A stretch of 20,497 nucleotides of DNA, from the IMG/VR virus record IMGVR_UViG_3300005841_000092, positions 1 through 20,497 of that record. One strand, written 5' to 3'. How positions within the stretch are numbered: the first letter of the stretch is position 1; every line of letters begins with the position of its first letter. Below, in pieces: positions 1,666-18,632 of the stretch. The translations under genes were made by a program, and so were the position numbers. This DNA comes from a virus. Below the pieces are notes generated by a model, which was not told the origin of the DNA, did not search any database, and worked only from the letters and a program-made list of their open reading frames with translations.

Positions 1666-2907
1666 ATGCCACAAACATTGTCCTTTAGTCAGCTAGTGTC
1701 TAACTTGTCACTGGCACAATTCCAATACAACATGCCTTTTATCATGACCTCTGATAGAGGATTTGAGCCAGATTTTATGGACAATTCTTATCAGCCAGGT
1801 TCTACCGTTAACGTTCGTAAAGTTAACCGTTATATCGCTCAACGCGGTCGAATTCTTACCCCTGAAGATACACTTGAAGAAACAACACCATTAACCATTG
1901 GTCCAGAGTACGGAAATGCTATTGCATTCAACTCTAAAGAATTAACATTAGAAGTCACTAAAGCAGCGCCAAAATATCAAGAACGATACGTGTCTCCAGT
2001 TGTTCAAAACTTGGCAGCAACTCTTGAGAAAGATATTGCAGCATCTGGACTTTTACAGGTTAACTATTTCTCTGGTTCACCAACAGCGCCAATTTCAGAC
2101 TTTGCGCAAGTTGATATTATCAATGCAGGCATGGTTGAGCTTGGCATGCCAACAGCTGAAGATGTAAGTATGGTATTGTCACCACGTGATGCATCTGCAC
2201 TTAAAGCATCTAACCAAAATGCATTTAATCCAACATTGAATACCGACATTTCTTTTCGTTCACAATTGGGAAGATACTCACGTTTCCAAATGTTTGAATC
2301 ACCAGCTACTCAAATCCATCAATCAGGAACTGTTACAGGCGCTCCATTAGTAACAGGTGTTGTGGCTTCTGGCTCAACCACAGTAACTGTTCATGGATTA
2401 ACACCTAGCACAGATACATTCAAAGCAGGTGACACCATTTGGTTTGGGACAGCTGGAACCAATACAGCGGTTAACTCTGTCAATCCTGTTACGCGTGATG
2501 ATACAGGGCAAGTAATGCCTTTTGTTGTTCAAAATGATGTAACTGCTGATGGCGCAGGTAATGCCACATTGACCGTATTCCCAGCGATTATTAGTGATCC
2601 CGCTAATCCACGACGCAATGTAAGTATGCCAATTCCTACTAACTCCACAGTTAACTTGTTAGGAAATGGATTGCGTTATCGTTATAGCTTTGCTTATACA
2701 AGTCGTGCTTTATCTCTTGTTATGCCTCCTATGGTTCGTGTTCATGCGCCAGAATGTGGTGTTGCTGTTGATAAAGAAACCGGCATGTCTCTTCGTGTAA
2801 CTATTGGTTTCGACATGATTAACGGTATCGATATGACGCGTATTGAGTTCTTGGCTGGTTTTAGATGGCATCAAGAATATGCATTCAAAATTATCAGTGC
2901 AGTCTAA
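1666..2907 (+). CDS. Major capsid protein, P22 coat (gp5) family
   Basis: This 413-aa protein has the features of the P22 coat family: an N-terminal helix, an HK97-like core, and an inserted beta-barrel domain at about residues 225-320. That insert carries the family pattern of a GDTIWFGTAGTNAVN-like strand, then NPVTRDDTGQ, then FVVQ, as in the P22 insertion domain. The protein builds the icosahedral shell around the scaffold. Its length is close to P22 gp5 (430 aa). TAGGAG at 1651-1656 sits 9 bases before the ATG. Codon use is richer in C- and G-ending codons than the neighbouring genes, as expected for the most highly expressed virion protein. The 412-base upstream region with tRNA and repeats gives it an unusually long leader. 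Confidence 0.93.
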   Translation: MPQTLSFSQLVSNLSLAQFQYNMPFIMTSDRGFEPDFMDNSYQPGSTVNVRKVNRYIAQRGRILTPEDTLEETTPLTIGPEYGNAIAFNSKELTLEVTKAAPKYQERYVSPVVQNLAATLEKDIAASGLLQVNYFSGSPTAPISDFAQVDIINAGMVELGMPTAEDVSMVLSPRDASALKASNQNAFNPTLNTDISFRSQLGRYSRFQMFESPATQIHQSGTVTGAPLVTGVVASGSTTVTVHGLTPSTDTFKAGDTIWFGTAGTNTAVNSVNPVTRDDTGQVMPFVVQNDVTADGAGNATLTVFPAIISDPANPRRNVSMPIPTNSTVNLLGNGLRYRYSFAYTSRALSLVMPPMVRVHAPECGVAVDKETGMSLRVTIGFDMINGIDMTRIEFLAGFRWHQEYAFKIISAV

Positions 2908-5867: not shown

Positions 5868-6398
5868 ATGGATGAAATAAAAAATGATATGCATATAAAA
5901 AATGTTGATAGAAAAATTGTAGACAATCATGCACTAGAAGTAAGGAGAACAAAAAATTATAAAGTTCTTCGGAAAATTATATTTAATAATGAAATTTATC
6001 CTGGATTATTATCAATAAATCCTAATGATGAATCCACTTTATTTGATAAAAATCCAAAGATATGTAATTTAGAAGAATATGCAGAAGACGTTCTTAATAA
6101 TGATTCAATGATTTATTATTTGCTGGAAGTAGACCAAAAAATAGCTGGGTTTTGTGCTTGGATGTTATTAAGTAATCAAAAGAATTATGCCGTGGATATT
6201 GGGATTTATAAAAAATTTAGAGGAAAGATGGGTTATCATTTGGGTTTAATGTCATTAGAGAAATTTAAGCGAGAGATAAGTAATGACATTATTTATGCTT
6301 CAGTAAAAGAAGAAAATAAGCCATCATTATTTTATAGTCAATCAATGGGCTTTAAGAAAGTTTTCAATAAAAACGGATTCATTTGTTTAGGGGTATAA
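5868..6398 (+). CDS. GNAT-fold N-acetyltransferase-like protein
   Basis: This 176-aa protein has a strong TAGGAG ribosome site (5856-5861). The GNAT signature region is visible: a strand KIAGFCAWML (about residues 88-97), then VDIGIYKKFRGKMGYHLGL (about 107-125), which matches the acetyl-CoA-binding motif A pattern R/Q-x-x-G-x-G/A with the second position modified (RGKMGY), then ASVKEENKPSLFYSQSMGF (motif B, with Asn and Phe-Tyr). It lies between head-completion and ejection genes, the same relative place as P22 gene 14 and T7 gene 13. Whether it acts as an enzyme on a host or virion substrate, or only as a structural GNAT-like ejection factor, cannot be told from sequence. Confidence 0.72.
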   Translation: MDEIKNDMHIKNVDRKIVDNHALEVRRTKNYKVLRKIIFNNEIYPGLLSINPNDESTLFDKNPKICNLEEYAEDVLNNDSMIYYLLEVDQKIAGFCAWMLLSNQKNYAVDIGIYKKFRGKMGYHLGLMSLEKFKREISNDIIYASVKEENKPSLFYSQSMGFKKVFNKNGFICLGV

Positions 6399-9441: not shown

Positions 9442-11028
9442 ATGCCATCAACATTTGCTTTAGCGCCTATACCAATTTGGATCATATTAGAACCTAATGG
9501 ACAACCCGCATCTGGCGTTATCATGTATCCGCGATCTACACTAAATCACGATACCGTTAAAAATGTATTTCAAGATTCTGGCGGATTAATTCCATGGCCA
9601 TTAAATGCAGATGGCGGAATTGTTTTCCAAGGCAATGGAACGCAAGGTCCTTTTTATTGGGAAAACACAGGCATTGCCAATGATTTATATTTTTTAACAT
9701 TTTATGATGAAGCGGGTCAGTTAATATATACAGTTGATAAGTATCCACAAACGGGTGGTGGTGGCTCAGGCCCTGTTACAAATTTAATTAATATAAATAA
9801 TTTCATTATAGATGGACAATTTTCCTATAATGATTTAGGAAGCTCTACAATCGCCCCAGTTCCTCTTGGCGATACGGTCATTCAAAAAATCGCATTTCCT
9901 AAATCACCACAAAATTCCAGTGGAGGTTGGTTTTTTATAAAAGATGTCGCAGGGAATACAGATTCTATTTCTATTCCCCAAACATCATTAAGTGATGTTA
10001 CTCCATCAAATCCTAGAAATAGATTTGTTTATTCCTGCACAGTTGCAGGAACTGTAGGAAATGTTCTTGATTTAACATTTCAAATACCAGACGTTAAAAC
10101 ATTTAGTAATCAAGAATTACGATTTCAATTTCAGGCATCAGCAACAGGCTCAGCACCACCTGGCGTTATGTCAGAAGTAGTTGTTACTCAAAATTTTGGA
10201 ACCGGTGGGTCACCTTCTGCAACTATAGAGACTCCATTTGCTTTCACATGGCCCGCAGTTGAATCATTAGTTCCAGTTAGTATTACAGTTCCAACTGTAG
10301 CGGGTAAATCACGCGGAACTAATAATGATGACTTTATTTATATTTCTATTAGGTTCCCTATTGGAGTTACAGGTGTCTATAGCGTGACTAATGTAATGGG
10401 TGTTCAAGGAACTACTCAACCATCTAGTTATATTTATGATACTCAAAATGAGGTCTTTTATAAGATTTTAGCTTCCATGGTTCAAGATTCATTCTTTCAA
10501 ACTGGCGATATAGTCATGAATTGGAATGGCATTGTGGGAACCAGGCCAGGATGGCTTGCATTTGGTGATGGTACTTCACTTGGTAAGACGGGATCACTAG
10601 CAACAACAACGGGTCAAATTTATTTTAATTTATATAGTTTTTTATGGAATCATGTTTTAGATGCGCAAGCGCCTGTAACACCAGGTGGAAGAGGTGTTTC
10701 AGCATTAGCTGATTGGAATTCTTTAAAGAAAATACAAATTCCATTTACTTCACAAAGAGCTTTGATTAATTTTTTCAATGGTGGATATCAACAAGGACAA
10801 GCAGTTGGCGCAAGCAGTGTCTCATTATCGATAGCCAATTTGCCCGCTCATAGTCACACATTGGCTTTTCAATTATTAAAAGATGGCGCATCATTATTTT
10901 TATCAGCCGGCTCATCAGCTCCGGGTTTTGTTCATTCCGGTATTACTACAACCAATTCAACAGGTAGTGGAACAGCATTTAATATTATTCCCCCAGAAAC
11001 AGTTGCATCTTTCTGGATTAAACTTTAG
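9442..11028 (+). CDS. Tail fibre/spike: head-binding N-terminus, collar-like C-terminus
   Basis: This 528-aa protein has an AAGGA ribosome site 8 bases before the ATG. Residues 1-107 resemble the P22 tailspike head-binding domain in layout: NGQPASGVIMYPR, then VFQDSGG, then PLNADGGIVFQGNG, then FYDEAGQLIYTVDKYP. A Gly/Ser linker (TGGGGSG) follows, then beta-rich domains (about 120-350). The C-terminal third is tail-collar-like: GDIVMNWNG, then RPGWLAFGDG, NLYSFLW, and near the end LPAHSHTLAF with a terminal 'NIIPPETVASFWIKL', as in phage collar and fibre tips. It is probably the main adhesin carrier attached to the tail hub. I see no endorhamnosidase-type beta-helix, so no glycanase activity is claimed. 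Confidence 0.75.
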   Translation: MPSTFALAPIPIWIILEPNGQPASGVIMYPRSTLNHDTVKNVFQDSGGLIPWPLNADGGIVFQGNGTQGPFYWENTGIANDLYFLTFYDEAGQLIYTVDKYPQTGGGGSGPVTNLININNFIIDGQFSYNDLGSSTIAPVPLGDTVIQKIAFPKSPQNSSGGWFFIKDVAGNTDSISIPQTSLSDVTPSNPRNRFVYSCTVAGTVGNVLDLTFQIPDVKTFSNQELRFQFQASATGSAPPGVMSEVVVTQNFGTGGSPSATIETPFAFTWPAVESLVPVSITVPTVAGKSRGTNNDDFIYISIRFPIGVTGVYSVTNVMGVQGTTQPSSYIYDTQNEVFYKILASMVQDSFFQTGDIVMNWNGIVGTRPGWLAFGDGTSLGKTGSLATTTGQIYFNLYSFLWNHVLDAQAPVTPGGRGVSALADWNSLKKIQIPFTSQRALINFFNGGYQQGQAVGASSVSLSIANLPAHSHTLAFQLLKDGASLFLSAGSSAPGFVHSGITTTNSTGSGTAFNIIPPETVASFWIKL

Positions 11029-11036
11029 GAGTAAAT

Positions 11037-11333
11037 ATGTCAATTAATACATTATATAAAGTCGTTGATATTTTATTATCAACACGACGTGAAAGATTAG
11101 GAAGATTTGCTTCTAAAGGTTTTACATCTGCTATTACATTAGATGTCGAAAATCCTTGGGCATTTTCATCATTTATGGTGAGTGCAGCAGGTGATGTGGT
11201 GATTGAAGATGGTGAGGGTAATTTAATGAAATTTCCCGCTTGTCAAATAGGCCGTCAGTATTGGGCTGTTGGAGTAAAGGTTTTATCATCTGGAACAACA
11301 GCAACGGGTATTTTTGTTTATGGAGGAGTTTAA
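11037..11333 (+). CDS. Small 98-aa virion protein, function unknown
   Basis: The ATG follows TAGGAG with ideal spacing, 8 bases after the fibre gene. The product begins with a short basic helix (LLSTRRERLGRFASKGF) and then is mostly beta: FMVSAAGDVVIEDGEGNLMKF, CQIGRQYWAVGVKVLSSGT, TGIFVYGGV. Small beta proteins of about 100 aa with the 'DG-G....P......Y..GV..V..TGTT...I..' layout are common near phage tail and decoration genes, but I cannot name a family. It is placed between the large fibre and the modular paralogues, so an adaptor or trimerising or decoration role is plausible. It shares no evident module with its downstream neighbours. Confidence 0.6.
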   Translation: MSINTLYKVVDILLSTRRERLGRFASKGFTSAITLDVENPWAFSSFMVSAAGDVVIEDGEGNLMKFPACQIGRQYWAVGVKVLSSGTTATGIFVYGGV

Positions 11334-11336
11334 ATA

Positions 11337-11969
11337 ATGTTTAATTCAGAAGGTTTATTTACAGCATCAGGAATTTTTAATGCATCGGCTTATGGTGTTG
11401 CTCCTGCATTACATACTTATCATACAGAAGATAATATTGCGACAGTCTCAGCGCCTGATTATTTCCCTGATTTCTTTAATACGGATCCTTTAGATATTAG
11501 AGTTAAAGATATTCTATTTTTAGAATGCAGTGATTTTAATCTAATCGTAGTCATTGATTCCTTAGAACCAGTTACATTGACTCCATTTATTAATTTCCCA
11601 ACTAATATTGTAACAGAAACCACATCAACACAATCTCAAACCGCAAGTGGCGTTTGGGCTGCCCCTATCGCATTTACATTAGATTTTGTGCAACAAGGAA
11701 GCGAAACATTAATGACATTTCCAAACCTTGTCGATGTGTCGACAGGCGGACCTTCAATTTTATTTGATACCGCCATTCCATTAGCTAATCGTCCTGCATT
11801 TGAACAAGTTATTCCTATTTGGATCCTCGATAACAGTTTGGCTGAAGTTGGTGTTTTAACATTAGCAACATCAGGTATGGTAACAATTACTCGAGCTAAT
11901 AGCGTTGCATTTACTGCAACAGGTAATGCGGCAGTTGTTGGCATGGCTATTAAATATAAAAACGTCTAA
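11337..11969 (+). CDS. Modular tail/receptor paralogue 1 (head + tip, no stalk)
   Basis: This 210-aa protein has a GGAGGAG ribosome site inside the end of the preceding gene. Its N-terminal half (1-~92) matches the head module of the genes at 12911, 13990 and 15979: a GLFTASGIFNAS start, LHTYHTEDNIATVSAP, YFPDFFNTDP, IRVKDILFL, then SLEPVTLTPF and FP.NI. Its C-terminal half begins with the tip signature GVWAAP (residue 105) and ends in beta strands. The two modules are joined directly, so it is the minimal member of the family. It is the most divergent copy; the NRGTF motif of the others is not kept. It is separated from its relatives by the lysis genes. The stop shares a base with the endolysin ATG (TAATG). 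Confidence 0.72.
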   Translation: MFNSEGLFTASGIFNASAYGVAPALHTYHTEDNIATVSAPDYFPDFFNTDPLDIRVKDILFLECSDFNLIVVIDSLEPVTLTPFINFPTNIVTETTSTQSQTASGVWAAPIAFTLDFVQQGSETLMTFPNLVDVSTGGPSILFDTAIPLANRPAFEQVIPIWILDNSLAEVGVLTLATSGMVTITRANSVAFTATGNAAVVGMAIKYKNV

Positions 11970-12529
11970 TGATGCTAACAAAATCAATATTAGATTTGAT
12001 TGTTTCAAGAGGCGCAAAAGAGAAAAATATTCTTCTATTATTGGAAGCCTTAAAAAAATGGCTTCCAATATATTTGATGGATACTGATTTAAGATTAGCG
12101 GCTTTTTTATCTCAATGCGCTTATGAGACAGGTGGATTTATTTTCTTTAAAGAATTAGGTGGTCAGGATTATTTTAAAAAATATGAGGGCGACACTAAGA
12201 TAGGAAAGATGTTAGGGAACACTCAGCCTGGAGATGGGTATAAATATAAAGGAAGAGGTCCTTTACAAATAACAGGCCGTTCTAATTATGAACATTATGG
12301 AAAATTGATTAATGAGAATTTAATTGATGATCCCGATTTATTGCTCATTCCAGATATAGGTGTTCATTGCGCTTGTGAATTTTGGAAACAACATGATTTA
12401 AATACATTAAGTGATTATGGAAATATAAGGGAAATTACCAAACGAATAAATGGCGGTCTAAATGGATTAGACGAAAGAGTTAATAACTATAATGTATTGA
12501 TAAAGGCTTTGCATGTTAACGGAAAGTGA
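11969..12529 (+). CDS. Endolysin, GH19 (chitinase/lysozyme-like) family
   Basis: This 186-aa single-domain protein belongs to glycoside hydrolase family 19, used by many phages to cut peptidoglycan at lysis. The visible family features are FLSQCAYETGGF with the catalytic Glu at residue 53, a second acidic residue at 62 (FKELGG), the substrate-groove block YKYKGRGPLQITGRSNYEHYG (91-111), and the C-terminal KRINGGLNGLDERVNNY (158-174). There is no signal peptide or membrane anchor, so it needs a holin or another route. The first 40 residues form a helical lead. It overlaps the next gene (small membrane protein) by 17 bases. The presumed holin is on the other strand, 5 kb away. Confidence 0.93.
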   Translation: MMLTKSILDLIVSRGAKEKNILLLLEALKKWLPIYLMDTDLRLAAFLSQCAYETGGFIFFKELGGQDYFKKYEGDTKIGKMLGNTQPGDGYKYKGRGPLQITGRSNYEHYGKLINENLIDDPDLLLIPDIGVHCACEFWKQHDLNTLSDYGNIREITKRINGGLNGLDERVNNYNVLIKALHVNGK

Positions 12530-12710
12530 AGAAAAGGAAATAAGGGAAATTATAGAAGATCGCAGGAGATGGTTATCCTTTTTTTATATCTTAAGGAGAC
12601 CTTATGTATTTATACCAGCGTCCATTGTTTTTATTTCTCTTGTGGACAACCCTGATTTTTACATTGGTAAAATAATTATTAAGTTTTTTCACACATATTT
12701 TTCAGCTTAA
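12513..12710 (+). CDS. Small membrane protein after endolysin (lysis accessory candidate)
   Basis: This 65-aa protein overlaps the endolysin end by 17 bases, with AAAGG upstream of the ATG. A charged N-terminal helix (LTESEEKEIREIIEDRRRW) is followed by one clear membrane segment (about 28-44: RRPYVFIPASIVFISLV) and a second weaker hydrophobic stretch (FYIGKIIIKFFHTYF). The tight coupling to the endolysin suggests a lysis role, such as a second holin, antiholin or release factor. The layout (cytoplasmic charged head, then one or two helices) does not fit an i-spanin, which would need a long periplasmic coiled coil. Its 3' end overlaps a convergent small ORF by 32 bases. Confidence 0.6.
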   Translation: MLTESEEKEIREIIEDRRRWLSFFYILRRPYVFIPASIVFISLVDNPDFYIGKIIIKFFHTYFSA

Positions 12711-12849
12711 TAATAAAATTATTAATATTTTTTCTGTAAGCATCATGCGATATTGAATTATTTTCGAAATCTTTTTTGTTCCACTCAATCTCAAAAATTA
12801 TTTTTTTTAATAGGCAATCCAAATCATTATCTTTTTTATTTTTATCCAT
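12679..12849 (-). CDS. 56-aa opposite-strand ORF inside the late operon
   Basis: The ATG (complement of 12847-12849) opens a 56-codon frame ending at 12679. An AGGG lies 7-8 bases upstream on the same strand (TTTAGGGCATAAA before ATG). The product is charged and helical, with Lys-rich ends and an amphipathic middle (LDCLLKKIIFEIEWNKKDFE). It fills most of the 200-base gap between the small membrane protein and the next receptor paralogue, and is convergent with the former. Lone reverse genes in a phage late operon are often morons or host-modifying genes, but nothing shows a function. The natural amino-acid composition and filling of the gap favour a real gene; weak initiation signals argue against. 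Confidence 0.45.
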   Translation of the reverse strand: MDKNKKDNDLDCLLKKIIFEIEWNKKDFENNSISHDAYRKNINNFIIKLKNMCEKT

Positions 12850-12910
12850 TTTATGCCCTAAATTAATAATCTACACTCAACTATTATTACATTTAATAAG
12901 GAACATGACT

Positions 12911-13972
12911 ATGTACAATGAAACAGGTTTACAACTAAATAGAGGCACATTTAATTCGCAAATGAGTGGCAATGTAAGTGGTACTGTTATGCATTCCTAT
13001 AAAAATATGTTAGATACAATTGCAACAATAAGTGCGCCCGCATATTTTCCAGATAATTTTAATGCGGATCCAACAGAGATTTTTGTTGGAGATGCTCTAC
13101 AAATAGTAGGAAGTGATGGATTAGAAATATTTGAAATCACATCACTTTCTCCAGTTACAGTAGTGGCAAATAGTGGTAATTTTCCAGGTGGAATAACAAC
13201 TACTACAATTAATGCAACAACTTCTATAACAACCCCTAATTATTTTGGCACAAATATGACATTAACAGGTGATATTACTGCTAATAAAGTCAATGCACTT
13301 ACTGAAGTTTTTGCCCCTCTTATAAGAACAACTCCAATAACCGGACAAGTAACATCTGCAAATATTACGGCAACCTTTATTGGAACCAATACTATTGATG
13401 CAACAACTTATGTTTCTTCCAACGGATTTATACATGCCATTGGGGATATTACTTCTGATACAGGAAATATTACAGCTACCACTGGAAATGTTGTTGCAGG
13501 AGGCGCTATTTCAGCTCCCACAGGTAATATAACTACCGTTAATGCGGCAACTGTTGGAACAAGCGCCATATATATTGGGGGGGGCTCAACACCCGAGACT
13601 TATTTTGATGAATATTCGGCGACTGTTCCCGTAACAGGGCCTTGGGCATCTCCCATTAATACGTTTATAAAAATTCAACGTATTAATCAAATGCTCTATT
13701 ACTATATCCGTGAGATTCCTGCGGCTCCTGCAACTATTGCTAACGCTATGTTTATTGCTGATGGAACAATTCCTGCAGCATTTAGGCCGGCAATATTAAG
13801 AGATGTTGGTCCATTTACAACCATTAATAATGGCGTATATCAATTATCATCAGTTGAATGTAGATCATTAGGTGGAATAGTAATTTCAGGAAGCCTGCAG
13901 AATTCAACACCTTTTACAGGTGCTGGCACAGCTGGATTTTATGATATTCAGTTTGTCGTTTCTCAAAACTAA
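12911..13972 (+). CDS. Modular tail/receptor paralogue 2 (head + short stalk + tip)
   Basis: I place the start at the ATG at 12911, 8 bases after AAGGA (12898-12902); this makes the N-terminus MYNETGLQLNRGTF, matching the paralogues at 13990 and 15979, whereas the longer open frame from 12776 would add an unrelated hydrophobic lead. The product is 353 aa. The head module (1-~92) has NRGTFNSQ, HSYKNMLDTIATISAP, YFPDNFNADP, FVGDALQIVGSDG and SLSPVTV. The short stalk (~93-220) is Thr/Asn/Ile-rich. The tip module from GPWASP (243-248) ends in PFTGAGTAGFYDIQFV. The tip is close to that of the next gene, with shared IQRIN, YYYIR, ADGTIPA.FRP and FTTINN. An 8-G tract at 13577-13584 precedes the tip. 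Confidence 0.75.
   Translation: MYNETGLQLNRGTFNSQMSGNVSGTVMHSYKNMLDTIATISAPAYFPDNFNADPTEIFVGDALQIVGSDGLEIFEITSLSPVTVVANSGNFPGGITTTTINATTSITTPNYFGTNMTLTGDITANKVNALTEVFAPLIRTTPITGQVTSANITATFIGTNTIDATTYVSSNGFIHAIGDITSDTGNITATTGNVVAGGAISAPTGNITTVNAATVGTSAIYIGGGSTPETYFDEYSATVPVTGPWASPINTFIKIQRINQMLYYYIREIPAAPATIANAMFIADGTIPAAFRPAILRDVGPFTTINNGVYQLSSVECRSLGGIVISGSLQNSTPFTGAGTAGFYDIQFVVSQN
13577..13584 (+). repeat. Eight-G homopolymer in a receptor paralogue
   Basis: Eight consecutive G encode Gly-Gly-Gly (codons 223-225 of the gene at 12911) at the stalk-tip junction. The equivalent codons in the 13990 paralogue are GGT GCC GGT, so the tract is not needed for the protein. A one-base loss reads 16 further codons to a stop at about 13628; a one-base gain reads 8 further codons to a stop. 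Either removes the whole tip module. It is the longest G or C run in the window. Confidence 0.85.
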
Positions 13973-13989
13973 ACAAAAGGAACTTTTAT

Positions 13990-15969
13990 ATGTTTCAATT
14001 AGCCGGTTTAAAAATAAATAGGGGTACTTTTGGATCACCTATGACCTCTAGTGATAAAGGGTCTGTTATTCATACATATAAAAGTTTAACGGATACTATT
14101 TCAACTATTAATAGTCCTGGTTATTTCCCAGATAATTTCGATACTGATATTACTAATATTTTTGTAGGAGACGCGATTTCAATATCAGGATCCGATGGTG
14201 TCGAACTATTTGAAATAACAGGATTGGAACCTATAGCACTGGCATCTATTATCGAAAGTTTTCCATCAGGAATAACAACAACAACAGTTGATGCAAGCAC
14301 ATCGATAACATCTCCATTAATCAATACAACAACTATTAATGCAACTAATGTTAATACATCAAATGTAAATGCATCTGGAACGATTACTGTACAGGATATA
14401 ATTGGAACGGGAACATTATCATTTCCAACAATTAGTACTGGCGCAATTAATACAACTGGAAATATAACAACAACAAATTCAATCTCTGCAGGAAATGATA
14501 TAACAGCTGCAGATAACATTACATCTGCCACTATGAATGCTACTACTTCACTAACAACACCTGTTGGAAATATAACAACTCTTAATACAACAACATTTAA
14601 TTCGAGTGGCGATATTACAACTTCTTCCGATCTTCATGCCGCTAATGTTATTGCATCCAATTCAATTTCTGCAGGTAATGACATCACGGCAGTTGATAAT
14701 ATTACCTCTTCAACAATGAACCCAACTACATCATTGACCACTCCTATTGGTAATATAACAACTGTTAATGCAACCACAGTCAATGCAACAACTGTCACAG
14801 CGAGCGGAACAGTACAAGGATCAACAGTCCATGGAACAACAGCAGTAACCGCTCCTGCAATAACCGCCTCAACTTCTATGAGCACACCAACATTATCGGC
14901 AACAACTTCTCTCACTACACCAACAGGAAATATAACAACTGTTAATGCGACAACCGTTAATGCTACAAATGTCACGGCCACTGGAACCGTACAAGGTGCA
15001 ACGGTTCACGGAACATCGGCAGTTACTGCCCCGTCAATAACTGCTTCAACCTCCATGACAACCCCTACATTATCGGCTACCACTTCATTAACAACGCCAA
15101 CTGGAAATATTACGACTCTTAATTCTACGACTATAAATAATTCTGGGACTGTAAATGGTGGAACATTAGCTTCATCAGGAGCAGTTACAGGTTCAAGCAT
15201 GACAGCTACAGGCGCAATTCAAGGAGCAACTGTTAATGGCACAACATCTATAACAAGCCCCTCTTATTCGGGGACAAATATGACATTAAGTGGAGCTATT
15301 CAAGGAGCCACTTTAAATGGAACTACATCCGTTACTTCTCCTACAGGGAACATAACTACAGTAAATTCAACAACAGTTAATACAACAAATGCCAATGTTC
15401 CAGGAACATTAACGGTTGGTACTTTGAATGCAACAACTACTAGTTTTACAAATATCAATGCATCAGGAACTATTACGGCTCCTGTAATTGATGGCACTAC
15501 GTCAATGACAACACCGACAGGAAATATAACAACTGTTAATTCTTCAACTGTCGGAACCGGTGTTATATATATTGGTGCCGGTTCAACACCTATATCATTT
15601 TATGATGAATGGTCTGCAACCGTTTCATTTACTGGTCCATGGGCCTCACCCAATAATACATTTATGCGGATCCAGAGAATAAATGATGCATTATATTATT
15701 ATATTAGAGGTCTTGGGACGATTGCAGCTGTTGCAGCACAGCCAATGACTTTAGCTGATGGAACTATCCCAGCGAACTTTAGGCCGTCGATATTGCGTGA
15801 AGTTGGCACATTTACAACTATAAATAATAGTGTATATCAAGTGTCATCAGTAGCTGTCAGATCGGCTGGAGGTATTTTAATTTCTGGTGGATTACAAAAT
15901 ACATTGCCTTTTACGGCGTCCGGAAATGCGGGAACAATGGATATCGAATTTGTATTATCAACAAACTAG
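13990..15969 (+). CDS. Modular tail/receptor paralogue 3 (head + long repeat stalk + tip)
   Basis: This 659-aa protein has an AAAAGGAA ribosome site at 13975-13982. The head module (1-~93) starts FQLAGLKINRGTFGSP and contains HTYKSLTDTISTINSP and YFPDNFDTD. The stalk (about 94-540) is almost only Thr, Asn, Ser, Ala, Gly, Val and Ile in short repeats of the type 'TPTGNITTVNATTVNAT' and 'SGTVQGATVHGT', with a 59-residue unit present twice in tandem (codons 255-372). This composition suits a fibrous beta-helix or trimeric shaft. The tip module begins GPWASP at 549 and closely matches that of the preceding gene. It is the longest member and probably the extended fibre of the set. Long reverse-strand open frames over the stalk are by-products of its codon pattern. 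Confidence 0.8.
   Translation: MFQLAGLKINRGTFGSPMTSSDKGSVIHTYKSLTDTISTINSPGYFPDNFDTDITNIFVGDAISISGSDGVELFEITGLEPIALASIIESFPSGITTTTVDASTSITSPLINTTTINATNVNTSNVNASGTITVQDIIGTGTLSFPTISTGAINTTGNITTTNSISAGNDITAADNITSATMNATTSLTTPVGNITTLNTTTFNSSGDITTSSDLHAANVIASNSISAGNDITAVDNITSSTMNPTTSLTTPIGNITTVNATTVNATTVTASGTVQGSTVHGTTAVTAPAITASTSMSTPTLSATTSLTTPTGNITTVNATTVNATNVTATGTVQGATVHGTSAVTAPSITASTSMTTPTLSATTSLTTPTGNITTLNSTTINNSGTVNGGTLASSGAVTGSSMTATGAIQGATVNGTTSITSPSYSGTNMTLSGAIQGATLNGTTSVTSPTGNITTVNSTTVNTTNANVPGTLTVGTLNATTTSFTNINASGTITAPVIDGTTSMTTPTGNITTVNSSTVGTGVIYIGAGSTPISFYDEWSATVSFTGPWASPNNTFMRIQRINDALYYYIRGLGTIAAVAAQPMTLADGTIPANFRPSILREVGTFTTINNSVYQVSSVAVRSAGGILISGGLQNTLPFTASGNAGTMDIEFVLSTN
14752..15105 (+). 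repeat. 177-bp tandem duplication within the fibre stalk
   Basis: Two adjacent in-frame units, 14752-14928 and 14929-15105, each encode 59 residues starting NITTVNATTVNAT and ending SLTTPTG. By direct comparison they differ at 6 of 59 amino acids and at 35 codons, 29 of them synonymous (39 of 177 bases). Partial copies of the unit continue on both sides (for example SLTTPIGN before and NITTLNSTT after). The synonymous divergence shows that this is an old duplication kept under protein-level constraint, or one in which DNA identity has been reduced. Confidence 0.9.
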
Positions 15970-15978
15970 GAGTGCAAA

Positions 15979-16692
15979 ATGTATAATTTAAATGGATTAC
16001 AAATAAATCGAGGAACATATAACTCTCAACAAATTTCAGGAAATTTAACATCTTGTAATCATTCTTATAAAAGCGAAACAGATACAGTTGTTGAAATTTT
16101 GATGTCTGGATATTTCCCTGTAGATTTTAATGTCGATACTGATGATATAAAAGTGGGTGATTTACTTTGGGTTGTTGGCACAGATGGATTTTCTATTACA
16201 AAAATAACCTCTTTAAATCCAGTAACCTTGATGATCAATCCAGCAAGTAATGTTTTTCCAAGTGGTATTACAACTTCATCTATTGATTTTATCAATGGCG
16301 GAGGATTTATTGACTTTTTTGCTGCGACTAATTTACCCGTTAGTTGGTCTGGTCCTTGGGCTTCTCCAATTAATTTAAGCTCAGGAATAAGAGGGTATGT
16401 AATCAATGATTTATGTACATTAGTATTTATTCAGATCCCCTTTATAACAGCAACGAGCTCATCAATTATTACATTGGCCGATCCCCTTCCTGAAGATTTT
16501 AATCCAGATAGCGATAAGAGTTTTGGCCCATATTTGATGGTAAGTAATAGCATTAGGGTGGCGGGTACAATCCATATAACATCTGCTGGAGTTGTAACAA
16601 TATCATCAAATTTAGATGATTCAGGTGTATTTACAGGTCCTGGTGCTGCCGGCTTCTATACAATATCAGTTACATTTAATATCAATGATTAA
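15979..16692 (+). CDS. Modular tail/receptor paralogue 4 (head + tip, short linker)
   Basis: This 237-aa protein starts after TAGGAG with ideal spacing, 9 bases after the long fibre gene. Its head module (1-~95) begins MYNLNGLQINRGTYNSQ and has HSYKSETDTVVEIL, YFPVDFNVD, IKVGDLLWVVGTDG, SLNPVTL and FPSGI. Only a short linker separates it from the tip (GPWASP at 125-130), which ends VFTGPGAAGFYTISVTFN. The head module is close to that of the long fibre, while the tip is the most divergent in its middle, suggesting a different binding surface on the same frame. It could form a short spike beside the long fibre. Confidence 0.75.
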   Translation: MYNLNGLQINRGTYNSQQISGNLTSCNHSYKSETDTVVEILMSGYFPVDFNVDTDDIKVGDLLWVVGTDGFSITKITSLNPVTLMINPASNVFPSGITTSSIDFINGGGFIDFFAATNLPVSWSGPWASPINLSSGIRGYVINDLCTLVFIQIPFITATSSSIITLADPLPEDFNPDSDKSFGPYLMVSNSIRVAGTIHITSAGVVTISSNLDDSGVFTGPGAAGFYTISVTFNIND

Positions 16693-16707
16693 TACAGGAG
16701 ATTTTTA

Positions 16708-17112
16708 ATGGGTATTTATGTTCAGCAACAACATTTTCAAGAAGAGATAGAATTTACTGGTATTTGGGCTGCGCCAGTAAAAATTTTAGTAAATATTTTA
16801 ATAAATGAAATGTTAGCGACACTGCATTTTACAGAATGTGTTTTTGCAGCAACCACTTCGGCGATTATTGTTGCGCGACTTCCTTCTTATCTGGCGCCTG
16901 CAAATACAGAAACGAATGGCGTGAGAGATCTTTTAAGAGTAACCGATAATGGCGTTTTATCTGTAGGTGGCTATCGTCTTTTCTCTTTGCCATCTGGAGA
17001 AGTCCAAATCCAAGTTGGAACAGCATTAAATTCTACTATTCCATTTTCTGGAACGGGTCAGAGTGGCTTTTCTAGATTTGACATGACATATATTTTAGAG
17101 CAAACAAGATAA
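16708..17112 (+). CDS. Tip-module-only relative (stand-alone C-terminal domain)
   Basis: This 134-aa protein has an AGGAG ribosome site at 16696-16700. It lacks the head module; it starts with 12 residues (GIYVQQQHFQEE) leading directly into IEFTGIWAAP, the tip signature, and ends IPFSGTGQSGFSRFDMTYIL, matching the 'FTGAGTAGFYDI.F' close of the other tips. Hence it is a stand-alone tip domain, the last gene of the rightward unit, followed by a hairpin terminator. It may associate with a truncated or headless partner or bind other family members. It could also be a degraded member that lost its 5' part, but the clean ribosome site argues for a working gene. Confidence 0.7.
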   Translation: MGIYVQQQHFQEEIEFTGIWAAPVKILVNILINEMLATLHFTECVFAATTSAIIVARLPSYLAPANTETNGVRDLLRVTDNGVLSVGGYRLFSLPSGEVQIQVGTALNSTIPFSGTGQSGFSRFDMTYILEQTR

Positions 17113-17120
17113 ATTATTTT

Positions 17121-17149
17121 AAAGCCTCTTAATTGAGGCTTTATTTTTT
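17121..17149 (+). terminator. Rho-independent terminator of the rightward (late) unit
   Basis: A perfect 8-bp stem, AAAGCCTC (17121-17128) with GAGGCTTT (17135-17142), has a 6-base loop TTAATT and is followed by TATTTTTTA. It lies 9 bases past the last receptor gene and just before the convergent stop at 17152. In the reverse direction the T tract is interrupted (TTTAAAATAATTT), so stopping of the leftward transcript would be weaker. Confidence 0.88.
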
Positions 17150-17151
17150 AA

Positions 17152-17478
17152 TTAATAGTTTCCAGAAATGCCTCTAATTATTTCCCAATTTTTAAATTCA
17201 TCTTTTAGTTCCTCTATATTTTTATAGATATTATTATACTCATCAAACTTTTCTGTAATTTTAGCTTCTGAGCCACATACTTTAATATTATATCCATTTT
17301 TATTAGCAGATATTATTAAATCTGAAATATCACTTCCCATTCTACCTGCAATGTCATTATTCATATATATAAATTCATCCGCCTTTTCTTGAGTTAATTT
17401 TTTTTCGGATGTAAAAGGCTGGTATGTTGCATAATGACCATTATGGGTATCTTTAAATAAATAATTATAAATTGTCAT
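17152..17478 (-). CDS. 108-aa protein downstream of the holin, function unknown
   Basis: The start overlaps the holin stop by ATGA (17475-17478), so it is translationally coupled to it. The product is hydrophilic, with an N-terminal aromatic stretch (TIYNYLFKDTHNGHYATYQPF), a helix (TQEKADEFIYM), a strand (GYNIKVCGSE) and a C-terminal helix (FDEYNNIYKNIEELKDEFKNWEII). It has no signal peptide or membrane segment. I do not recognise a family. Coupling to a holin would suit a holin regulator, but nothing in the sequence shows this. It is the last gene of the leftward operon, ending 2 bases from the convergent terminator. Confidence 0.6.
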   Translation of the reverse strand: MTIYNYLFKDTHNGHYATYQPFTSEKKLTQEKADEFIYMNNDIAGRMGSDISDLIISANKNGYNIKVCGSEAKITEKFDEYNNIYKNIEELKDEFKNWEIIRGISGNY

Positions 17479-18005
17479 TTTTTATTTTCTCTATTCGCAA
17501 TATTAGCTAATAAATTAGTTTTTGTTGCCGAGCCATGGGTTGTTCCTAGATAAAAATTCATTGCTTGTCCACACCAAATAGCAAGACTTCCAATTAATAT
17601 CTGGATAATGTCTTTAGCTGAATCTCGTATAGGATATAGCATAAATAATAATAAAATAGAAAAAAACATGGTTAAAATTATAATAGAAAGGAAAGCGGGC
17701 ATTTTATCATGAAGCTGGATATTTCTATTTCTAGCACTTGCTATATCATCATTTTCTAATTGATGTTCGGCTAACTGAACAGAAAGTATTTTTTCTTTAT
17801 ATTTTTCATCTAGTTGTTTTAAAGCTACCAATTGATCGGGTGTGGCGTTTTTTATAGCATTAACAAATGATTCAGGACTTGCATTATACTCACCTGTAAG
17901 AAAAGAAGATAATGCAGAGGCTGCCTCACCACCTAATGGCCCACCAATAAGAGAGCCAATAAATGGTGCAACAGAACTTATGATTTCTTTAAGAGTTGTA
18001 TTCAT
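17475..18005 (-). CDS. Holin, GTA-type (3TM holin family)
   Basis: This 176-aa protein has the layout of the gene-transfer-agent release holin family: a Gly-rich amphipathic N-terminus (residues 12-36, APFIGSLIGGPLGGEAAS), a charged helical middle with LENDDIASARNR (84-94), a first strong membrane helix (103-126) and a second (132-150) with the conserved aromatic end MNFYLGTTHGSA. Holins of this type permeabilise the inner membrane so the endolysin can reach the wall. AAAGGA lies 5 bases before the ATG. It is on the strand opposite the GH19 endolysin, so the two lysis functions belong to different transcripts. The upstream spacer holds a candidate promoter and three repeated motifs. Confidence 0.8.
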   Translation of the reverse strand: MNTTLKEIISSVAPFIGSLIGGPLGGEAASALSSFLTGEYNASPESFVNAIKNATPDQLVALKQLDEKYKEKILSVQLAEHQLENDDIASARNRNIQLHDKMPAFLSIIILTMFFSILLLFMLYPIRDSAKDIIQILIGSLAIWCGQAMNFYLGTTHGSATKTNLLANIANRENKK

Positions 18006-18122: not shown

Positions 18123-18632
18123 TTAAAACGGTATATCATCATTTAATTCATTATTTTTTCCACTATCTGATATCTGATCGGATTGAACACCGGCCACTCT
18201 TATATCAACTACTTTTTCCGCTCTTAAATAAAAGTTAATCTTATTAGTAGGCTTTTGCATCGTATTATCAACTAATATATCAGCACCAATCACCCCACCT
18301 ATCAATATATTTAAATCTTTCTTGATTGAGAATATATCTACCTTATCTAGTATAGTGCATATTGTTCTAAGTTTACGTCTAGCATAATCTTGAGCTTTCT
18401 CGCTAGCATTTTCTACATTAAGGAAATCAAATATAACCCTTCCTTTATGTTCACCTTCAGTAACCATCAAATCCAATCTAATAGCTCTTTCTCCTGTTCC
18501 CTGCACTTTACCTTTATTTGTTAGATTAAGCTTTGCATCTGTTATACGTAGAACATATTGATTCTTTGGCAAAGGCTCAAAATCTTGTAAAGGCTCATAT
18601 GATTTAATATCAAAATCGATTACGTTGTCCAA
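18123..18632 (-). CDS. DUF669-like ssDNA-binding protein, TTG start
   Basis: The 169-aa protein starts at TTG (complement of 18630-18632), 8 bases after AAGGAG; no in-frame ATG fits as well. It resembles phage DUF669 proteins: an N-terminal 'FDIKSYEPLQDFEPLPKNQY' start, LRITDAKLN, the strands RAIRLDLMVTEGEHKGRVIFDFLN, a helix with YARRKLRTIC, then an OB-like C-terminal part. It ends in an acidic linker and DDIPF, the same tip bacterial SSB uses to recruit partners. It probably coats ssDNA for replication or annealing and works with the adjacent Sak4-like ATPase, 2 bases upstream in the operon. The family assignment is by pattern and context, not by alignment. Confidence 0.72.
   Translation of the reverse strand: MDNVIDFDIKSYEPLQDFEPLPKNQYVLRITDAKLNLTNKGKVQGTGERAIRLDLMVTEGEHKGRVIFDFLNVENASEKAQDYARRKLRTICTILDKVDIFSIKKDLNILIGGVIGADILVDNTMQKPTNKINFYLRAEKVVDIRVAGVQSDQISDSGKNNELNDDIPF

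Follow-up and report, generated by a model that had tools for sequence, protein, structure and literature searches.

Positions 11,337 to 17,112 of a viral DNA fragment (IMG/VR record IMGVR_UViG_3300005841_000092, positions 1 to 20,497; hereafter the window, meaning the whole stretch analysed) hold an array of five related genes, named here by their start positions as g11337, g12911, g13990, g15979 and g16708. The 20,497-base fragment belongs to a P22-like podovirus, known from metagenomes only. The proteins are built from an N-terminal head or anchor module, a stalk and a C-terminal tip or knob module, and g16708 is a knob by itself (Table 1). All five open reading frames (ORFs) are open at the listed coordinates, and each has its own ribosome-binding site within a single late-gene run. 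For g12911, position 12911 is a better start than 12776: the longer ORF from 12776 owes its length to a mere TTG extension, and 12911 is preceded at 9 nt by AAGG. The stalks measure about 10, 140, 450 and 30 residues in g11337, g12911, g13990 and g15979, respectively. A preliminary description of this DNA had called the stalk absent, short or about 450 residues long, which gets the extremes right and overlooks the intermediate one of g12911. Thr makes up 30% of the g13990 stalk, which repeats at lags of 11 and 59 residues and whose DNA contains a tandem unit of 177 nt (14748-15123).

Table 1. Features of the fibre array, its surroundings and related loci (coordinates without a contig prefix are those of the window)
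Feature	Position	Strand	Evidence
Major capsid protein (MCP), P22-like, putative docking partner of the anchors	1666..2907	+	phrog_283 E 1e-35; P22 gene 5 protein in PDB E 4e-7
Tail fibre protein, upstream of array	9442..11028	+	phrog_25042 tail fiber E 2e-6
98-amino-acid (aa) gene between tail fibre and array	11037..11333	+	phrog_12296 (tail) E 0.006
g11337, class-a fibre: anchor 1-84, almost no stalk, knob ~94-209	11337..11969	+	head and tip hidden Markov models (HMMs)
GH19-type endolysin, splits array	11969..12529	+	PF00182 E 3e-10; phrog_181 E 9e-46
g12911, class-b fibre, 353 aa: anchor 1-86 (12911-13168), stalk to ~13603, knob 232-353 (13604-13969)	12911..13972	+	head and tip HMMs
Junction hotspot in g12911, codons 221-290	13571..13780	+	14.8% divergence from L002 vs 0.6% upstream
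g13990, class-b long fibre, 659 aa: anchor 1-86, Thr/Ser/Asn-rich stalk ~87-537, knob 538-659	13990..15969	+	head and tip HMMs
Junction hotspot in g13990, codons 491-560	15460..15669	+	11.0% divergence from L002 vs ~2% either side
g15979, class-b short fibre, 237 aa: anchor 1-86, linker ~28, knob 115-235	15979..16692	+	head and tip HMMs
g16708, free knob, 134 aa, without anchor	16708..17112	+	tip HMM E 1e-34
Terminator-like hairpin then T run; end of late operon and array	17120..17143	+	sequence
Stand-alone anchor gene, 84 aa, without stalk or knob, diverged relative	L006:2596-2850	+
Stand-alone anchor gene, 84 aa, without stalk or knob, diverged relative	L016:12263-12517	-
FNGMYAAP-type C-terminal domain on two unrelated anchors	L040:5837-6646; L032:11986-12807; L033:11974-13311		~60% identical

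Heads and tips were compared without their stalks. The head modules of the four anchored genes gave pairwise z scores of 19-45 and the tips of all five genes 5.6-72, and in both sets none of 300 shuffles reached an observed score. The C-terminal module that had been proposed as common to the four genes and the 16708 gene is therefore real, and so is the N-terminal module of the four, except that its listed motifs are not all present in g11337, the most divergent member, which has ASGIF and VKD in place of NRGTF and VGD while retaining HTY, YFP and SLEPV. The anchor of g12911 shares 51-54% identity with the anchors of g13990 and g15979. As controls, the 98-aa gene and the tail fibre showed no head similarity, and the tip of g13990 against the 98-aa gene gave z 4.2, with 1/300 shuffles reaching the score. 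The stalks are of low complexity, and the likeness might be ascribed to chance among Thr/Asn-rich proteins; as stalk-free heads and tips outscore every shuffle and the profile matches fall in the modules, this explanation is refuted for the observation and keeps virtually no probability.

Neither Pfam nor PHROGs gave a significant match to the five array proteins, and tblastn of g12911, or of a single head or tip sequence, against 50,697 phage records returned nothing credible. Separate profile searches with heads and tips, which the preliminary description had recommended, found relatives for both, namely LME-1 orf16 (9eg4_H) and Zav_19 (7qrj); the head module is no orphan. The head profile matched chain H, 'orf16', of PDB entry 9eg4 (E 4e-5), and hhalign of the heads against the orf16 family gave a probability of 96.7 (E 3e-10). 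Foldseek with the full-length g11337 model also had 9eg4_H as its top match (prob 0.97, E 0.17); the model is of low confidence (predicted local distance difference test, pLDDT, 42), and this list was used only to name the entry and as weak support. The entry, titled 'icosahedral capsid of LME-1 phage', contains seven MCP and seven orf16 chains, and 89/269 orf16 residues are modelled, as would be expected of a flexible fibre. We take these chain counts to suggest a T=7 asymmetric unit in which each MCP has one orf16, a ratio that would equally correspond to trimers on all 140 three-fold sites; no open paper on the entry was found. LME-1 itself stands for Legionella mobile element-1, a phage-like element of Legionella pneumophila (PMC9765430).

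Further relatives of the head module occur in a contig of a metagenome-assembled genome (MAG; L040), in eleven viral contigs (L041-L051) and in the isolates SI2, Pelagibacter phage EXVC031P and Methylophilales phage MEP301, the isolates having been searched with, among others, a hand-made consensus of the module that served as a probe and is no natural sequence. In every other carrier that was read (L040-L047, L049, L051, MEP301, EXVC031P and SI2), the module gene lies directly 3' of the MCP gene and, where the contig continues, precedes tail tubular A. These carriers include near-duplicates (L044-L046; L047-L050) and the truncated L043, and amount to about ten independent contexts. MEP301 gp30 (88 aa) and the EXVC031P protein (81 aa) consist of the module alone and match phrog_18004 (E 4e-18 and 1e-12), a family with no annotated function. 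Searches with the anchor module gave no Pfam match, no tail PHROG match and no related known tail-binding domain. From these profile matches, the head module is probably a capsid-decoration domain related to LME-1 orf16 and PHROG 18004. Two of the carriers bear questionable labels. L040 (JAHEYD010000014.1), labelled as a Candidatus Nitrosotalea MAG, is probably misbinned, because the contig is podoviral and carries a head operon like that of LME-1. The algal host of 'Dunaliella viridis virus SI2' (L052, HQ332136.1) is doubtful, because its head operon (phage-type MCP, anchor-module gene and tail genes) is of bacteriophage type.

A profile of nine tips matched one solved structure in the PDB, Zav_19 of Zamilon vitis (7qrj, E 5.7e-15), and Foldseek with an AlphaFold2 model of the tip (pLDDT 83) retrieved the same protein (E 1.3e-4, prob 1.00), with weaker scores for adenovirus fibre, reovirus sigma1 and the lactococcal receptor-binding heads 2fsd and 4ios. 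In the viral library, the matches were Pithovirus LCPAC001, a Guarani virus collagen-like protein and Lactococcus phage proteins, and tblastn with the Zav_19 domain reached receptor-binding proteins of 936-group Lactococcus phages (E 2e-3). The marseillevirus ORF121 is a trimer capping capsomers, and its fold is common to Zav_19 and NMV_189 (PMC11936420). On these matches, the tip is best read as a putative viral receptor-binding or cap knob, with a predicted fold of the trimeric class that includes Zav_19, the lactococcal heads and the adenovirus and reovirus knobs; by analogy, it would form trimers and bind a ligand. The suggested layout of anchor, stalk and receptor-binding-type tip was right in this respect, the tip fold being that of known viral receptor-binding knobs. 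A scan of genome contigs for the tip found no relative and hence gave no pointer to the host.

Taken together, the array probably encodes capsid-anchored, knob-tipped head fibres. The N-terminal module of ~86 residues would dock on the outer capsid face in the manner of the N-terminal domain of LME-1 orf16, and the stalk would hold the C-terminal 120-residue beta-barrel away from the capsid, where it may trimerise into a knob with a surface ligand as its target. With one anchor common to all of them, the paralogues would compete for the same capsid sites, and a virion could carry a coat in which stubby fibres are mixed with medium and long ones; the free knob of the window lineage and the free anchors of its diverged relatives would be the same parts, unlinked. 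A P22-type MCP and a gp10-type connector (phrog_578) are both present in the window phage.

The main rival is that these are tail-attached receptor-binding proteins, whose anchor attaches to the short tail or to the fibre encoded at 9442 and which would give the tail several specificities. The array does follow the tail fibre gene and the 98-aa gene with its tail PHROG match, and the knob fold is known from receptor-binding proteins of lactococcal phage tails. On the other side, the other anchor carriers inspected all adjoin the MCP and one is part of a solved capsid, the anchor lacks a tail-fibre PHROG match, and four to five paralogues plus free anchors fit poorly on a tail, where sites are 6- or 12-fold. 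The tail, moreover, already has a separate fibre gene. The relationship of the head module to LME-1 orf16 and PHROG 18004 makes capsid fibres likelier than tail adhesins; a tail placement, which is close to the view of the preliminary description, is probably wrong, and we consider it possible but unlikely.

Several observations weigh against placing the fibres on the capsid. The array is not directly downstream of the MCP gene (11337-17112 vs 1666-2907), adjoining tail fibre and lysis genes instead. The full-length g11337 model is too poor to interpret. The P22-like MCP of the window (phrog_283) has no BLAST similarity to the LME-1-like MCP, so that the surface available for docking may differ between them.

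The locus of the array in other phages provides further context. The tail fibre at 9442..11028 was the query used to find the wider phage group; it is common to 20 contigs, two of them already known, and in the eighteen more distant ones the array modules were not found in the available sequence. The 98-aa gene has homologues in L005 and L006 and, in the wider group, counterparts about 100 aa long (E 1e-7 for that of L020). In the sister contigs that were read, the locus after this gene is occupied by other modular stalked genes, the first of which matches PHROG 2647 'head decoration' in all five contigs scanned. In L032 and L033, the PHROG 2647 gene shares a C-terminal domain, at 58-61% identity, with the orf16-like capsid gene of L040, while the N-terminal domains are unrelated; one anchor stands beside an LME-1-like MCP and the other after a podovirus tail fibre. 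This is a clear case of an FNGMYAAP-type domain swapped between anchors. The PHROG 2647 match and the likeness to L040 tie the locus to capsid decoration. Here too there are points against: the PHROG 2647 domain of the sisters is not homologous to the window anchor, and the next gene in L020 has a domain that also matches tail-fibre PHROGs, so that synteny alone is no proof.

The closest contigs, L002 (97% identical to the window) and L003, are the only near-identical ones, and two diverged relatives, G003 (L005; 32.9 kb) and G004 (L006), were found. The G003 genome looks circularly permuted and nearly complete, because its two ends overlap inside one fibre gene in the ORF reading; no exact terminal repeat was found. 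Comparison across these phages, which had also been proposed, showed that gene number differs by lineage and that the class-a gene is kept. It lies between the 98-aa gene and the endolysin in all lineages, its orthologues in G003 and G004 are 42-46% identical to g11337, and the L002 copy is identical. After the lysis genes, three class-b fibres and a free knob follow in the window lineage; G003 and G004 each have one class-b fibre, making two fibres with class a, and a free 84-aa anchor. The free anchors of the diverged relatives mirror the free knob of the window.

Head and tip trees recover the same groups, with class a apart from class b and g12911 paired with g13990. Module shuffling between the classes inside this phage is rejected on this concordance, which indicates that the classes are old and co-inherited; the extra class-b copies arose at least partly by duplication. 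Between the window and L002, nonsynonymous polymorphism (pN) is well below synonymous polymorphism (pS) in every array member that differs, which indicates that the genes are under selection. Sequence replacement is localised to the stalk-tip junction in g12911 and g13990 (Table 1), the rest of both genes diverging 0.6-3.7% from L002 (clustering permutation p <= 0.0005 in both). At the sites of g13990 that differ between the strains, the paralogue g12911 agrees with L002 at ten and with the window at one, which suggests gene conversion, as yet unproven, behind the differences. The DNA of g11337 (11337-11969) and of the gene for a single-stranded DNA (ssDNA)-binding protein (18123-18632) is 100% identical between the window and L002, with neighbours differing by 3-4%, and this suggests recent recombination tracts. 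The idea of the array as a reservoir for module exchange is therefore not supported between classes within the phage, and it finds support in junction replacement and in the tip swaps of related decoration proteins between phages.

These patterns also bear on the suggestion that only part of the array is used in the virion, class a (g11337) being a fixed structural part and class b a variable cassette or a lysis-released decoy or adhesin. Class a forms an orthologue group of its own in both trees, occupies one locus in three lineages and is invariant between close contigs, and the class-b genes follow the lysis gene and vary in number. Class b nevertheless retains the same anchor module under purifying selection, and each gene has its own ribosome-binding site within one late-gene run, which makes such a division of labour very unlikely.

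Elsewhere, the window phage encodes a scaffold protein, the GH19 endolysin and a Sak4-like annealing protein. Three 30-nt tandem repeats occupy the gap between the scaffold and MCP genes (1506-1597). A GNAT-type acetyltransferase gene (5868-6398, phrog_1249) lies within the structural gene run; it has a counterpart in L005, and MEP301 has a putative acetyltransferase near the terminase. Two holin or spanin candidates are present, a 65-aa possible membrane protein after the endolysin (12513-12710, + strand) and a conserved membrane protein convergent with the array (17475-18005, - strand, phrog_1544).

Head fibres and capsid decorations that end in a receptor-binding knob are of a kind already known, and the array consists of real, selected genes. 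Like the window fibres, LME-1 orf16 (9eg4 H) has its N-terminal module at the protein start, followed by a stalk or linker and a separate C-terminal domain. It is present in one copy, in its relatives directly after the MCP gene and with the FNGMYAAP-type C-terminal domain, whereas the window has four copies after the tail fibre and lysis genes, with a different C-terminal domain and MCP family. The PHROG 18004 proteins (MEP301 gp30, EXVC031P, SI2) are the module alone or short proteins, like the free anchors of G003 and G004, but they adjoin the MCP and lack the array-type knob. Zav_19 (7qrj), NMV_189 and the Jyvaskylavirus ORF121 cap resemble the array knob in profile and fold, and in marseilleviruses this is a trimeric capsid surface protein (PMC11936420); they belong to viruses of amoebae, have no such phage anchor or stalk and play a capping role on the particle. 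The lactococcal heads (2fsd, 4ios), reovirus sigma1 and adenovirus knobs are of the same class, a C-terminal beta-barrel on a stalk with receptor binding, but identity is low and their anchors, to baseplate, reovirus vertex and penton, are unrelated. Capsid-borne adhesive accessories or fibres of the proposed sort, with different folds, include phi29 gp8.5, T4 Hoc, SPP1 gp12 and the fibres of phage 7-7-1; phi29 gp8.5 and T4 Hoc are adhesive head accessories (PMC7602432), and the 7-7-1 capsid fibres bind the flagellum (PMC12796354).

We know of no report of four paralogues on one anchor accompanied by unlinked anchor and knob genes. A further, quite unlikely but attractive extension is a mosaic coat, in which fibres of four lengths with four knobs (and blank anchors in the relatives) compete for hundreds of equivalent capsid sites in proportions set by gene dosage and junction recombination. 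Such fibres may even aid adhesion to a protist housing the bacterial host, an idea that comes from the knob family being common to amoeba giant viruses and virophages. As far as we know, the PHROG 18004 module, the LME-1 orf16 structure and the giant-virus and virophage knob are three previously unconnected lines, which are joined here. PHROG 18004, a widespread but unannotated capsid-adjacent module, gains a testable function as a putative capsid anchor, and this anchor may be a marker for capsid fibres that could be mistaken for tail fibres by gene position. The array would thus offer a natural system for asking whether a phage mixes several fibres on one capsid lattice.

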